Below are positions 44,224-57,569 of a DNA stretch of 57,569 nucleotides, one piece after another. The stretch covers positions 1-57,569 of the forward strand of contig JAISIT010000223.1 in the NCBI GenBank assembly GCA_031261915.1, given 5' to 3'. The DNA comes from Candidatus Methanoflexus mossambicus (GTDB lineage: Archaea; Methanobacteriota; Methanobacteria; Methanobacteriales; Methanobacteriaceae). A program made the position numbers and the translations under genes. The notes below the pieces were generated by a model. That model saw only the letters and a program-made list of their open reading frames with translations, searched no databases and was not told where the DNA came from. How positions within the stretch are numbered: position 1 is the stretch's first letter; each line of letters opens with the position of its first letter.

Positions 44224-44683
44224 AACTGATAAAAACATTAATAGTTTTAATTTGAATTTAATTTTAACATATAACGTTTATAACAAATTTTAACTAACTA
44301 TATGATTTATTATTCTTTTATTTTTATTTGTTTTATTTATTATTTTATTTATTATTCTTATTATTCTTATTATTTTTATTATTTTTATTATTTTTTTAAA
44401 TCTATTTTGTGATTTTTAAGAGTAATTAATTTTTATTCATATTGTGAATAATTTTTATGTATAAACTAAATTTTAAATAAATTTTAAATAAATTTATATC
44501 TTATAAAATAGAAATTTTATACTATTATTTAAGTCGTGTATTTAAGCATTATATTTAAGTTTTATAGTTGAGTCATATAATTAATAGTTAATATGATTAA
44601 TAGTTAATATGATTAATAGTAATAACTTTTTTATCAATTTAATTTTATCAATATATAATAACAAAATTCATGGAGATTTTAAA
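44224..44683. other. Intergenic region upstream of mreB copy 1
   Basis: 460 bases, mainly TTATT repeats (44330-44395) and short repeats GATTAATAGTTAATAT (44575-44620). TATA-like TTTAAGTTTTATAG lies near 44551. No gene is visible. Confidence 0.5.
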
Positions 44684-45748
44684 ATGGCATTATTTGGAAA
44701 GAATAAACCTGAAACTGTTAAACCAAGAGGAATAATAAATAGTTTAGGAATTGATTTAGGAACTTTGAATACAGTTATTGCTAAACCAAGTGGAGATAAA
44801 TTTGATTTATATCAAATTCCATCTGTTGTAGCAGTTAAAAAAGATGACCCTAAAGCTGTTTTGGCCGTAGGAGAAGAAGCTAAGTTGATGTTAGGCAGAA
44901 CTCCTGAAGACATTGTAGCTATTCGCCCCTTAAGAAAAGGAGTAATAGAAAGTATTGCTCAAGCTCAAGCATTATTAATCAAAGCTATGGAAATAGGAAA
45001 AAAAGGTGGAGAAAAAATAAATAGAATTGTTATTGGTATTCCTGGTGATTCTTCTGAAGTAGAACGAAAAGCTGCCGAGGATATTGGTAAAAATGCAGGT
45101 GCTGATGATGTTTTGGTGATTAGTGAAGGTTTAGCTGCGGCTATTGGTGCTGGTCTTCCTATTGCCGAACCAAATGGAACTATGGTTATTGATATTGGTG
45201 CTGGTTCTACTGATTTGGTTATTATCTCTCTTGGAGGAATTACTGATATTGAAACTGTTCGCTTTGGTGGAGATGATATAGATACTAATCTTGTTGAAAT
45301 AGTTAGAGAAAAATATAATGTAGAAATTGGTATACATGTGGCAGAAACAGCTAAAATTGAAGTTGGAATGTTTCATTCAAGTGCAGATTTAGAGATTTAT
45401 GAAACTGAAGTCATTGGTAAATCTGCAGATACAAATAGACCACAAAAAATATCTATTGATTCTACAATGGTTGCAGATGCTGCAGAACCAGTTATTTCTG
45501 AGATTATTAAAGGATTAGATTTAGTTTTCCAAAGATTATCTCCAGAATTAGTCGATGGAGTTTATAAAAATTCTGTTGCTGTTGGTGGAAGTTCACAACT
45601 TCGAGGACTTGAAACTAGAATATATGATGAATTATTAACTCCTATAACCATTTCTGATGATCCTATGACTGTTGTTGCTAAAGGTGCAGCTATTGTTGCT
45701 GCCGAACCAAGAGCTTTAGATCCTGAAATTCGTATAAATGTATTTTAA
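44684..45748 (+). CDS. mreB: MreB-like actin-family protein, copy 1
   Basis: A 354-residue actin-fold cytoskeletal ATPase. Phosphate-1 is SLGIDLGTLNTVIAKP, phosphate-2 is MVIDIGAGSTDLVIISLGGI and the adenosine motif is VAVGGSSQLRGLE. MreB filaments guide wall synthesis and cell shape in rods; pseudomurein-walled Methanobacteriales are known to have MreB. I start at ATG 44684 after GGAGAT; the longer in-frame ATG at 44609 only adds A/T spacer. A second copy follows after 205 bp with long stretches of identical DNA. Confidence 0.9.
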   Translation: MALFGKNKPETVKPRGIINSLGIDLGTLNTVIAKPSGDKFDLYQIPSVVAVKKDDPKAVLAVGEEAKLMLGRTPEDIVAIRPLRKGVIESIAQAQALLIKAMEIGKKGGEKINRIVIGIPGDSSEVERKAAEDIGKNAGADDVLVISEGLAAAIGAGLPIAEPNGTMVIDIGAGSTDLVIISLGGITDIETVRFGGDDIDTNLVEIVREKYNVEIGIHVAETAKIEVGMFHSSADLEIYETEVIGKSADTNRPQKISIDSTMVADAAEPVISEIIKGLDLVFQRLSPELVDGVYKNSVAVGGSSQLRGLETRIYDELLTPITISDDPMTVVAKGAAIVAAEPRALDPEIRINVF

Positions 45749-45953: not shown

Positions 45954-47021
45954 ATGTCTTTGTTTGGAAATAAAAAAACTGAAACTGAACAGCTAAAAGG
46001 AATTATTAATAGTATTGGAATTGATTTAGGAACTTTAAATACGGTTATTGCTAAACCAAATGGAGATAAATTTGATTTGTATCAAATTCCATCTGTTGTA
46101 GCTGTTCGAAAAGATAATCCTAAAGTAGTTTTGGCCGTAGGAGAAGAAGCTAAGTTGATGTTAGGTAGAACTCCTGAAGATATTGTAGCTATTCGCCCCT
46201 TAAGAAAAGGAGTAATAGAAAGTTTTGCTCAAGCTCAAGCATTATTAATTAAAGCTTTAGAGATAGGTAAAGAAGAAGGAGAAATTATTAATCGCATAGT
46301 TATTGGTATTCCTGGTGATTCTTCTGAAGTAGAACGAAAAGCTGCCGAGGATATTGGTAAAAATGCAGGTGCAGAATATGTTTTAGTGATTAGTGAAGGT
46401 TTATCTGCAGCTATTGGTGCTGGTCTTCCTATTGCCGAACCAAATGGAACTATGATTATTGATATTGGTGCTGGTTCTACTGATTTGGTTATTATCTCTC
46501 TTGGAGGAATTACTGATATTGAAACTGTTCGTGTCGGTGGAGATGATATAGATGCTAACCTTGTCCAAATTGTTAAAGAAAAATATAATGTAGAAATAGG
46601 CATCCATGAAGCAGAAACAGCTAAAATCAAAGTTGGAATGTTTCATTCAAATGCAAATTTAGAGATTTATGAAACTGAAGTCATTGGAAAAGCAGCAGAT
46701 ACATATAGACCTAAAAAAGTTGTCATTGATTCAATGATGGTTGCAGATGCCGCAGAACCAGTTATTTCTGCAATTGTTAAAGGTTTAAATTTAATTTTAA
46801 AACGATTATCCCCAGAATTAATTGCAGGAGTTTATAAAAATACTGTTGCCGTTGGTGGAACTTCACAACTTCGAGGACTTCAAAACAGAATTGATGAAGA
46901 GTTAGATATTCCAATTAATCTTTCTGATGATCCTATGACTGTTGTTGCTAAAGGTGCAGCTATTGTTGCTGCCGAACCAAGAGCGTTAGAACCAGATGTT
47001 CGTATGAAAGCAATGAAATAA
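45954..47021 (+). CDS. mreB: MreB-like actin-family protein, copy 2
   Basis: A 355-residue paralogue of the preceding gene, with the same motifs (GIDLGTLNTVIAKP, MIIDIGAGSTDLVIISLGGI, VAVGGTSQLRGLQ). Start ATG follows AAGGAGAA, a strong ribosome-binding site. DNA identity to copy 1 is very uneven. 74 nt at 46299-46372 are identical to 45029-45102, and 46411-46531 differs from 45141-45261 at one base. The N-terminal ~20 codons and much of the last third are clearly diverged. This mosaic suggests gene conversion. Two subtypes could copolymerise. Confidence 0.9.
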   Translation: MSLFGNKKTETEQLKGIINSIGIDLGTLNTVIAKPNGDKFDLYQIPSVVAVRKDNPKVVLAVGEEAKLMLGRTPEDIVAIRPLRKGVIESFAQAQALLIKALEIGKEEGEIINRIVIGIPGDSSEVERKAAEDIGKNAGAEYVLVISEGLSAAIGAGLPIAEPNGTMIIDIGAGSTDLVIISLGGITDIETVRVGGDDIDANLVQIVKEKYNVEIGIHEAETAKIKVGMFHSNANLEIYETEVIGKAADTYRPKKVVIDSMMVADAAEPVISAIVKGLNLILKRLSPELIAGVYKNTVAVGGTSQLRGLQNRIDEELDIPINLSDDPMTVVAKGAAIVAAEPRALEPDVRMKAMK

Positions 47022-55381: not shown

Positions 55382-56533
55382 ATGTTTTTAGAAGTTAAAG
55401 ACCTATCAGTTGATTTAAATAAATTTAAACTTAAAAATATAAATTTAAATGTTGAAAAAGGAGAATATTTAGTTTTAATTGGACCAACTGGTTCTGGAAA
55501 ATCTGTTCTTTTAGAAACTATTATTGGTTTTTACAAAGCAAAAAAAGGGAATATTTATTTAAATGGAAAAGAAATAAGCAATACCCCTCCAGAAAAACGA
55601 GGAATTGGAATAGTATACCAAGACAACATGTTATTTCCCAATATGAATGTTTATGAGAATATTGCTTACGGGGGCAAACACAAACTCTCATCAGAAGAAT
55701 TAGAAAAAAGAATAATTAAAATATCCAAACAATTAAAAATAGATCAGCTATTTGATAGAGATGTAACAACTTTAAGTGGAGGAGAAGCTCAGAGAACATC
55801 CCTTGCACGAGCATTGATTACAAATCCAAAAATAATACTAATGGATGAACCTTTTTCTGCATTGGACATATCAACAAGGACAAAATTAAGATTAGTGATT
55901 AAAGACCTATGTATTCAACATAAAACAACAGTTATACATGTTTCCCACAACTTCAACGATGTATGGAATTTAGCAGATAAGGTAGGGGTTATGAAAGACG
56001 GAACCCTGCATCAAATAGGAAATGTTTCAGAAGTATTTTCAAAACCAGAAAACAATTTTGTAGCAGATTTCGTAGGTGTTTCAAATATATTTAAAGGAAC
56101 AATAATAAAAATAGCTCCAGATGCTGCAAAAATAGAATTAGAAAACGGAACAATGATAAATAGCTCAGATACAAAATGTATGTCAAAATTATACAATCAA
56201 AATCTTCAAAATAACAATGCAAATCAAGATAGTGTGGAGGTTATAGATAATAAAGTATTAATAGCTATTCGCCCAGAAAACATAATTTTCTCCAAAGAAA
56301 AATTTGAATCATCAGCAAGAAATCAATTAAAAGGCAAAGTAATTGAATTAATTAAAAATGGTCCAAATATCATCGTAAATGTGGATGTTAATAATATCAC
56401 AATACAAGGATTACTAACAGCAAATTCTGCAGACATTTTAGATATTAAAGTAGATAATGATATTTATATTAGTTTTAAATCATTAAATGTAAAAATTATA
56501 GATAAATACCATGAATTTGAAATAGGAAATTAA
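55382..56533 (+). CDS. modC: Molybdate/tungstate ABC transporter, ATP-binding protein
   Basis: A 383-residue ABC ATPase. Walker A is IGPTGSGKSVL (about 33-43), Q-loop VYQDNMLFPNM, signature LSGGEAQRTSLARAL, Walker B KIILMDEPFSALD and switch His in VIHVSHNF. The C-terminal ~150 residues form a TOBE-like oxyanion-regulatory domain (FVGVSNIFKGTI; IAIRPENIIFS), interrupted by an Asn-rich loop. GGTGA precedes the ATG. It is the last gene of the transporter set; the small-peptide repeats begin 35 bp after its stop codon. Confidence 0.93.
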   Translation: MFLEVKDLSVDLNKFKLKNINLNVEKGEYLVLIGPTGSGKSVLLETIIGFYKAKKGNIYLNGKEISNTPPEKRGIGIVYQDNMLFPNMNVYENIAYGGKHKLSSEELEKRIIKISKQLKIDQLFDRDVTTLSGGEAQRTSLARALITNPKIILMDEPFSALDISTRTKLRLVIKDLCIQHKTTVIHVSHNFNDVWNLADKVGVMKDGTLHQIGNVSEVFSKPENNFVADFVGVSNIFKGTIIKIAPDAAKIELENGTMINSSDTKCMSKLYNQNLQNNNANQDSVEVIDNKVLIAIRPENIIFSKEKFESSARNQLKGKVIELIKNGPNIIVNVDVNNITIQGLLTANSADILDIKVDNDIYISFKSLNVKIIDKYHEFEIGN

Positions 56534-56647
56534 TATAAGAATTTATTTTTAAAAATAATAATTAAAGAAGTTTTAATAATAAAATAAATTAATATTTCAA
56601 TATTTTTTTTAGTTTTTAATTGTAGGAAAGTGAGTTTTCCTTAATAC

Positions 56648-56743
56648 TCATGTTTTTTTAAGTAAAAGGAATAAAATGGATAGCATATAATAAATGATTG
56701 CTATTAAATAAAATATCAAAGACATTATTACAATAAAATCCAT
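56648..56743 (-). CDS. 31-residue hydrophobic peptide, candidate type I toxin, copy A
   Basis: A minus-strand frame of 31 codons: MDFIVIM, then one continuous hydrophobic helix of about 25 residues (SLIFYLIAIIYYMLSILFLL), ending in LKKT and TGA. GGAGGTG lies 6 nt upstream of the ATG, the best ribosome-binding site in the window. Copy B encodes the same peptide with one substitution (Ser8Phe), and its stop is TAA instead of TGA. Frame, length and stop are thus preserved, supporting translation. Size, single membrane helix, lysine end, tandem duplication and structured leader match type I toxins of the Ldr/Ibs/Fst kind, but there is no sequence homology I can claim. Membrane-active toxin is inference; a small transporter-associated peptide is an alternative. 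Confidence 0.7.
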   Translation of the reverse strand: MDFIVIMSLIFYLIAIIYYMLSILFLLLKKT

Positions 56744-56767
56744 TCACACCACCTCCGCTTAATTGTT

Positions 56768-56809
56768 AAAAGCAAAGCTAGTGTTTAGACAAAATAATGC
56801 TCTGCTTTT
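56768..56809 (-). promoter_or_regulatory. Leader hairpin of peptide A mRNA
   Basis: On the minus strand AAAAGCAGAGC (56809-56799) pairs with GCTTTGCTTTT (56778-56768) as an 11-bp stem with one G-U, around a 20-nt loop. It ends 14 nt before the GGAGGTG box. Copy B keeps the pairing with a C-G to U-G change and extends it by two base pairs, so the structure appears selected. The loop and 5' arm carry the sequence complementary to the candidate antisense RNA. Confidence 0.65.
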
Positions 56810-56893
56810 ACAAATAATTATTTAATAAATAAAAGCAGTTTATACTCACTAACCTACATATTAATTTATTAATTTTAAGTATTAAAATAATAA

Positions 56894-56910
56894 CTATTTG
56901 AAACAAATAG
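56894..56910. promoter_or_regulatory. Palindromic operator candidate
   Basis: CTATTTG-AAA-CAAATAG is a perfect 7+3+7 inverted repeat directly before the plus-strand TATA box. It is fully conserved in copy B at 57428-57444. Confidence 0.5.
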
Positions 56911-56923
56911 AAAAATATATATA
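56911..56923 (+). promoter_or_regulatory. Candidate promoter of antisense RNA
   Basis: AAAAATATATATA: an A-rich BRE-like run followed by TATATATA (56916-56923). Transcription would begin about 25 bp downstream, near 56943-56947, at ATTGTTAGACAG. The corresponding site in copy B is cut by the insertion-sequence end. Confidence 0.5.
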
Positions 56924-56942
56924 ACATCAAAATAAAAATATA

Positions 56943-56997
56943 ATTGTTAGACAGAATAATGCTCAAGCCACCAAATATTATTTTGGTGGCTTTTTTT
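56943..56997 (+). ncRNA. Candidate ~55-nt antisense/antitoxin RNA
   Basis: Bounded by a plus-strand TATA box at the expected distance and by a perfect hairpin followed by seven T residues. Its 5' part (56947-56964, UUAGACAGAAUAAUGCUC) is complementary to 18 consecutive nucleotides of the peptide A leader on the minus strand (complement of 56785-56802), with a single G-U pair. Binding would cover the loop and 5' stem arm of the leader hairpin. It is separate from, not simply opposite to, its target, as in RNAs acting in trans from a neighbouring site. Existence and boundaries are predictions. Confidence 0.5.
56965..56997 (+). terminator. Hairpin/T-tract terminator
   Basis: AAGCCACCAAA and TTTGGTGGCTT form a perfect 11-bp stem with a 6-nt loop, and the 3' arm runs into seven consecutive T residues. 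It is the strongest intrinsic-terminator-like structure in the window and stands out as a G+C-rich patch. Confidence 0.75.
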
Positions 56998-57182
56998 ATT
57001 TAAATAGATATAAGAATTATAAATTAACTTTAAAGTATTATTTATCTATAACTTTTTTTATAATTGTATAATCATTTCACAATTACTACTTAAAAGAGTA
57101 TTAAAAAGTTTTAATCTTAAAATAAATTAATATTATAATCTTTTTAGTTTTTAATTGTAGGAAAGTGAGTTTTCTTTAATAC

Positions 57183-57278
57183 TTATGTTTTTTTAAGTAA
57201 AAGGAATAAAATGGATAGCATATAATAAATGATTGCTATTAAATAAAATATCAAAAACATTATTACAATAAAATCCAT
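57183..57278 (-). CDS. 31-residue hydrophobic peptide, candidate type I toxin, copy B
   Basis: Identical in length and sequence to peptide A except Ser8Phe. The stop codon is TAA rather than TGA. The ribosome-binding site is weakened to GGATGTG where copy A has GGAGGTG. Its leader hairpin is kept (57303-57344), but the loop sequence differs from copy A, so the candidate antisense RNA next to copy A pairs with it only through AAUGCUC. The putative antisense gene of this copy has been cut off by an insertion. Reduced translation would be a plausible compensation. Confidence 0.65.
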   Translation of the reverse strand: MDFIVIMFLIFYLIAIIYYMLSILFLLLKKT

Positions 57279-57302
57279 TCACACCACATCCGCTTAATTG
57301 TT

Positions 57303-57344
57303 AAAAGCAAAGCATAGTGTTTAGGTAGTAAATGCTCTACTTTT
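57303..57344 (-). promoter_or_regulatory. Leader hairpin of peptide B mRNA
   Basis: AAAAGTAGAGCAT pairs with ATGCTTTGCTTTT on the minus strand: 13 bp with two G-U pairs, loop of 16 nt. Stem conserved with copy A, loop diverged. Confidence 0.65.
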
Positions 57345-57427
57345 ACAAATAATAATAAAGATGTAAAAATAATTTATACTCACTAACCTACATATTAATT
57401 TATTAATTTTAAGTATTAAAATAATAA

Positions 57428-57444
57428 CTATTTGAAACAAATAG
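57428..57444. promoter_or_regulatory. Palindromic operator candidate, copy B
   Basis: Same CTATTTG-AAA-CAAATAG palindrome as at 56894-56910. Its retention while the adjacent TATA box is truncated may mean it also serves the minus-strand toxin promoter. Confidence 0.45.
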
Positions 57445-57451
57445 AAAAATA

Positions 57452-57569
57452 GGCACTGTCAAAATCAACTGGTTGGAAGAAAATTTTAGTGACCATAATT
57501 AAAAAAATGCTTAATTTTTGATTTTAATATTTATTTGTTTATTTTTTCTATTTTCATCCAGCGTATTTT
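57452..57569. mobile_element. Left end of an insertion sequence (partial, runs out of window)
   Basis: GGCACTGTCAAAATCAACT matches the ends of the two miniature elements at 1139-1270 and 31758-31879 and the GG..CTGT.CAAA form of IS6-family ends. It begins exactly where repeat copy B is interrupted. The following sequence differs from the miniature elements, so this may be a full-length element with its transposase outside the window. The 8 bp to the left (GAAAAATA, 57444-57451) should reappear at the far end if this is a simple insertion. Confidence 0.65.

Follow-up and report, generated by a model that had tools for sequence, protein, structure and literature searches.

What does the short RNA predicted on the plus strand at 56946-56997 do beside a divergent gene for a small membrane peptide, whose mRNA leader carries almost the same 18 nucleotides? 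The window, i.e. the whole stretch of 57,569 nucleotides analysed here, is contig C229 of a 3.07-Mb genome in 316 contigs. Judged by sequence comparison, the module is probably a type I toxin-antitoxin-like system of an archaeon, present in eight copies, with the RNA repressing the membrane peptide.

Host genome

Matches above cut-off to the NCBIfam models for TopoVI-B, archaeal GAPDH-II, FBP aldolase/phosphatase and the F420 ligase CofE identify the window as archaeal. The mcrA model matched all six tested genomes of the family, including that of the sister species in the same genus, and gave no match in the own assembly. These results indicate a likely methanogenic lineage and an incomplete assembly, the missing mcrA being probably an assembly gap.

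Two divergent promoters and a shared segment

The elements of the RNA gene and of the start of the peptide mRNA are as follows.

56916-56923, plus strand: TATA box of the antisense RNA, TATATATA; an A+T-rich box kept in seven copies, with a BRE-like GAAAA element upstream
56946-56997, plus strand: predicted antisense RNA of about 52 nt, a 5' antitoxin segment followed by a terminator hairpin; covariance model R2, fold z = -4.5
56947-56964, plus strand: antisense segment complementary to the leader, TTAGACAGAATAATGCTC; sequence match and co-variation
56965-56997, plus strand: hairpin followed by a T run, resembling an intrinsic terminator; by eye, compensatory and G-U changes preserve the stem among the paralogs
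56879-56886, minus strand: predicted TATA box of the peptide mRNA, TTTAATAC; conserved sequence, spacing resembling that of the RNA promoter
56744-56857, minus strand: 5' leader of the peptide mRNA, predicted start G56857; covariance model R1, eight copies in the own genome
56785-56802, minus strand: antisense target, comprising the loop of hairpin P1 and the top of its 5' arm; complementarity and co-variation

The earlier note had proposed an RNA with a TATA box at 56916-56923, a start near 56945 and a hairpin with T run as terminator, and these parts are borne out by the sequence. Archaeal promoter spacing predicts the start at G56946, the 23rd base after the box (22 between). The mRNA start G56857 is the 22nd base after its own box, so that the two promoters have nearly identical box-to-start distances. 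Both units are presumably transcribed. The terminator hairpin (56965-56992) has 11 bp and a loop of 6, and with its T run it is the only terminator-like site within 56000-57569.

The 18-mer TTAGACAGAATAATGCTC at 56947-56964 repeats TTAGACAAAATAATGCTC at 56785-56802 with one A-to-G change, as previously described; in the RNA this change produces a G-U pair with the minus-strand leader. The RNA segment is hence complementary to leader positions 56802-56785 with a single G-U pair. For this locus (W1) alone, a 17/18 match between the two stretches was reached in 1 of 1000 dinucleotide shuffles.

The membrane peptide

56648-56743, minus strand: gene for a 31-aa peptide, MDFIVIMSLIFYLIAIIYYMLSILFLLLKKT, with one membrane span predicted; eight copies, dN/dS about 0.2-0.3 in most pairs

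A strong Shine-Dalgarno sequence within the ribosome site GGAGGTGGTG lies immediately upstream of the gene. The peptides have 31 residues, except for one copy with 29 and the read-through copy C113 with 47, and contain one hydrophobic span with a best 19-residue hydropathy (KD19) of 2.6-2.8. Differences among the copies fall mostly on third codon positions (217, against 141 at first and 47 at second positions), and dN/dS was 0.08-0.43 in every measurable pair except W1-C153 (0.99, few changes). By these substitution patterns the peptide is under purifying selection. A Pfam search with the peptide found no family, NCBIfam gave a single match far below cut-off, and an Rfam search yielded nothing above the gathering score.

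Copies of the module

When the own genome was searched by DNA similarity, peptide profile and leader model, eight copies emerged: W1 and W2 lie in the window, and the others are C153, C113, C19a, C19b, C19c and C194. Covariance model R2 identified the RNA gene in seven of them. All copies are paralogs and come from a single assembly, which is fragmented (316 contigs) and has 7.97% contamination. Genes flanking the module on the other contigs resemble chromosomal housekeeping genes, judged by eye from the ORF sequences. Both C19c and C194 adjoin a small kinase-like gene or parts of it (L094, G000:C19:8000-24761; L095, G000:C194); their contigs may represent one tandem array broken in assembly.

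The module was confined to the own genome in every search. The peptide profile found it in none of the 99 other genomes among 100, and the leader and RNA models each found it in none of the 138 others among 139 family genomes. DNA similarity searches of 120 relatives returned A+T-rich noise alone outside the own genome, and plasmids and phages gave nothing credible. On inspection, none of five weak matches of the RNA model proved to be a module. Matches to a 20-nt core pattern, 3 of them viral and 15 bacterial, lack a leader and are attributed to chance.

RNA and leader change together

Apart from its ends, the 18-nt segment shares little sequence across the loci, yet within each locus the RNA matches its own leader. 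The segment of C153, for example, is TTAGGTTATATGATGCT in both RNA and leader, and that of C194 is TTAGAGAATGCAAA in both; matched segments with other sequences recur in five paralogous loci. The shared segment of about 17 nt varies by copy and forms 17-20 bp.

When 18 intermolecular pairs were scored over seven loci, 92% of the cells were paired, a percentage inflated by the choice of the 18-nt register from duplex predictions, compared with 71.6% in shuffles and at most 41.5% in slid controls. The register does not explain the slid controls or the two-sided changes, which occurred in 14 of the 18 pairs and in none of 500 shuffles. The covariation score was 0.661 vs 0.246, and none of the 500 shuffles reached any of the five measures. 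The earlier note had suggested comparing homologous loci for retained complementarity. Both segments have changed together in six of the seven paralogous loci, where all 101 interior cells pair; the six interior unpaired cells all come from C113, as read off the table and the sequences, and here the match has been lost.

Pairing is also copy-specific. Own-pair duplexes had predicted energies of -23.6 to -28.6 kcal/mol in six loci and -9.8 kcal/mol in C113, where the RNA fails to pair with the leader of its locus. Non-own pairs averaged -9.7 kcal/mol, the best (C113 leader with C153 RNA) reaching -23.8. Six of the seven RNAs match the message of their own peptide best, and the true assignment of RNAs to leaders was the best of 5040 permutations (1/5040). 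The sequences therefore support co-variation and locus-specific matching of the two segments, and with them the antisense reading of the complementarity.

That the 18-mer is a relic of local duplication or a product of gene conversion without RNA function, the former being an alternative raised at the outset, now appears very improbable. The module does sit in a region of tandem duplications, but a relic predicts neither the joint change of both segments, which vary between loci and stay matched within each, nor the nature of the interior differences. Where leader and RNA differ in the interior (W1, C19b, C19c and C194), a G-U pair is kept on the predicted strands, always in the one orientation. 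Moreover, the flanks of the two segments are unlike each other, while the promoter, its spacing to the start and the terminator on either side of the RNA segment are conserved. It is extremely unlikely that the repeats, which flank both divergent promoters, are operator sites of a DNA-binding repressor. A single repressor would not tolerate the differences from locus to locus, both repeats lie downstream of the predicted starts, and some differences within a locus break DNA identity but keep RNA pairing.

Predicted alternative folds of the leader

The predicted helices and the ribosome site of the peptide mRNA are listed below.

56765-56811, minus strand: P1 hairpin, 5' arm 56799-56811 and 3' arm 56765-56778, with the target in the loop
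56799-56839, minus strand: P1' hairpin, a competitor of P1 in which the P1 5' arm is paired to 56829-56839
56747-56783, minus strand: P2 helix hiding the Shine-Dalgarno sequence, 56771-56783 with 56747-56759; alternative to P1
56752-56756, minus strand: Shine-Dalgarno GGAGG; GGAGGTGGTG in seven of eight copies, GGATG in copy 2
56636-56672, minus strand: hairpin spanning the stop codon; arms co-change in the more distant copies C19b, C19c and C194 (by eye)
56622-56634, minus strand: 3' strand pairing with the mRNA 5' end (56845-56857); 77/77 cells paired

The antisense target had been placed in a leader hairpin, and P1 is indeed present; what has to be added is a competing fold, predicted to be more stable, that combines P1' with the Shine-Dalgarno-hiding P2. 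P1 is formed by GUAAAAGCAGAGC with GCUUUGCUUUUAAC (96.2% of cells paired; slid controls 41-58%), P2 by CACUAGCUUUGCU with AGCGGAGGUGGUG (99% of cells in the eight copies; slid controls 33-68%) and P1' by ACUGCUUUUAU with the 5' arm of P1. Since the strand CUUUGCU is common to P1 and P2, these two helices are mutually exclusive. Column 142 co-varies with its partners in P1 (CG, UA, UG) as well as in P2 (GC, AU, GU). The two-sided counts for P1 and P2 are small, and those of P2 are often reached by shuffles, so that the support for both helices comes mainly from the persistence of pairing and the failure of slid controls.

The energy model favoured the closed form of the full leader in each of the eight copies, by 2 to 10 kcal/mol. 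For the leader without its 5' strand the balance ranged from -2.3 to +2.6 in seven copies and was +8.1 in W1. The modelled effect of RNA binding on a shift from P1 to P2 was inconsistent and varied between copies. According to these predictions, every one of the eight leaders can bury the Shine-Dalgarno sequence in a conserved helix, in competition with the hairpin that exposes the target.

The pairing of the mRNA 5' and 3' ends was complete in the copies, with one two-sided change, and the P1, P2 and end-to-end helices are retained in all or nearly all copies. The ends of the toxin mRNA can also pair in hok-sok, which is likewise under antisense control. Sok overlaps its mRNA, whereas here the RNA gene and the peptide transcript are divergent and do not overlap (predicted starts 56946, plus strand, and 56857, minus strand).

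The same end sequences are inverted (GTAGG..AGTGAG / CTCACT..CCTAC) and might mark the termini of a small mobile element by which the module spread, with the pairing of the mRNA ends being incidental. The copies are dispersed over five contigs, and in the sister species the element is absent between the same two neighbours as at C153. Homology among the copies, however, continues past the inverted ends and takes in the RNA gene, and one two-sided change from G-C to A-U together with G-U changes maintains the pairing in RNA. We regard this explanation of the inverted ends as very unlikely; it is not in conflict with the antisense reading.

Damaged copies

The second copy in the window (W2) consists of the following elements.

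57183-57278, minus strand: second peptide gene copy
57287-57291, minus strand: altered Shine-Dalgarno sequence GGATG of copy 2
57321-57337, minus strand: segment of copy 2 corresponding to the antisense target; no RNA matching it in the assembly
57452-57569, unstranded: end of an insertion sequence, inside the TATA box of the RNA gene of copy 2

A pattern search of the assembly found no RNA matching the target of copy 2. In this copy the TATA box of the RNA gene is cut by the insertion sequence and the Shine-Dalgarno sequence is altered to GGATG. C113 has lost the RNA match, and its peptide frame, reading through the normal stop, reaches 47 residues. In C19a the duplex contains a 1-nt bulge (still -24.8 kcal/mol), and a deletion alters the peptide C-terminus. 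Damage to the RNA or its promoter was thus accompanied by damage to the peptide gene in 3/3 cases, whereas the peptide genes of the five intact RNA-leader pairs are all intact. This pattern, noticed after the fact among eight copies and including lesions some of which could be assembly errors, is as expected of a toxic peptide.

It bears on the possibility that the pairing is real and the product a harmless membrane peptide, for instance a stress or envelope regulator, under tight antisense control. Small membrane peptides in multiple copies can be regulators, and the pairing evidence is neutral on the role of the peptide. The joint damage argues against a harmless product, as does the precedent of tandem, diverging pairs with pair-specific recognition among the zor-orz type I toxins (PMC3919570). 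We consider a harmless peptide unlikely, at a probability still worth bearing in mind.

The boundary GGCACTGTCAAAATCAACTGGTT of the insertion sequence is equally sharp beside different flanks on other contigs. This end (GGCACTGTCAAAATCAACTGGTT...) belongs to a multi-copy insertion sequence, and several contigs of the assembly break there.

Proposed mode of action and comparison with known systems

By analogy, the locus would work like a divergent type I toxin-antitoxin locus. The divergent TATA promoter would give rise to an RNA of about 52 nt, made up of 17-18 antisense nucleotides and the terminator hairpin. Its antisense part would bind P1 at the matching loop and the upper portion of the 5' arm, immediately upstream of the Shine-Dalgarno-hiding P2. 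Repression by binding at this position is the most likely mode of action, as IstR-1 and OrzO bind upstream of their ribosome sites (PMC4147584, PMC3919570). With the RNA bound, ribosomes would be barred either from an upstream site or from the open fold, and no peptide would be made; the block of translation could accordingly act through an upstream ribosome site or through refolding. If the RNA were lost, by gene loss or under stress, the peptide would be produced, act on the membrane and probably stop growth. The translation block and the toxicity of the peptide are steps that we infer.

Two hallmarks of type I systems were found at these loci, a small hydrophobic peptide gene under selection and, in six of seven loci, an RNA gene complementary to the peptide mRNA. 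As in zor-orz and tisB-istR, the genes are divergent and pair within the leader upstream of the ribosome site, over 18-21 nt in those systems (PMC3919570) and over 17-20 bp here; recognisable homology to a described family was not detected. The closest likeness is to zorO-orzO and zorP-orzP of E. coli O157:H7, with a 29-aa toxin, a divergent sRNA pairing through 18 nt at its 5' end and tandem specific pairs (PMC3919570). The shared traits are a peptide of some 30 aa containing a single hydrophobic span, a divergent sRNA whose 5' end pairs over about 18 nt with the mRNA 5' leader, and tandem copies in which a variable segment gives pair-specific recognition (PMC3919570). The present module differs in its archaeal host, TATA-type promoters and leader helices, and has no detectable sequence relation to zor-orz. 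Repression by OrzO requires RNase III (PMC3919570). The RNase III model TIGR02191 had no match in the own, incomplete genome, whereas it matched in nine bacterial genomes used as control; an OrzO-type RNase III step is therefore unlikely here.

In tisB-istR1, too, the leader is structured and its ribosome site sequestered, and a divergent RNA pairs far upstream of that site (PMC7708055, PMC4147584). That system differs in domain of life, sequence and length, and the present module occurs in eight copies. The timP-timR system shares mutually exclusive folds of the toxin mRNA leader and an antisense RNA that binds at a comparable place, about 50 nt upstream of the ribosome site (PMC11228461); the active form of timP is a pseudoknot, whereas here P1 competes with P1' and P2, and the sequences are unrelated. 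Among archaea, sRNA162 of Methanosarcina mazei is a small RNA that pairs with 5' leaders, in one case in antisense (PMC3510493), but it regulates other genes and is not part of a multi-copy peptide-RNA module.

A paper of 2025 described type I systems as known only from Proteobacteria, Firmicutes and Tenericutes and added Cyanobacteria (PMC12390103). Our literature search, whose coverage excluded most subscription papers, found no archaeal type I system. On balance, we lean towards regarding the module as the first archaeal type I family, independent of the bacterial loci and comprising eight diverging copies, orthogonal pairs and a leader switch between open and closed Shine-Dalgarno states. 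If so, Archaea arrived at the same solution as Bacteria using their own type of promoter and with no RNase III found in the genome, which raises the question of how repression works without that enzyme. The seven RNAs and eight leaders constitute a natural specificity panel for the recognition nucleotides.

Other observations

In two other genera of the family (L099:1501-1595 and L100:1501-1595) a TATA box precedes a stretch common to both, AATATAATATGTTCTAAGA, and a T-rich end; this may be a small RNA unrelated to the module. Elsewhere in the window, two closely similar MreB/Hsp70-like genes lie in tandem at 44609-45748 and 45954-47021.
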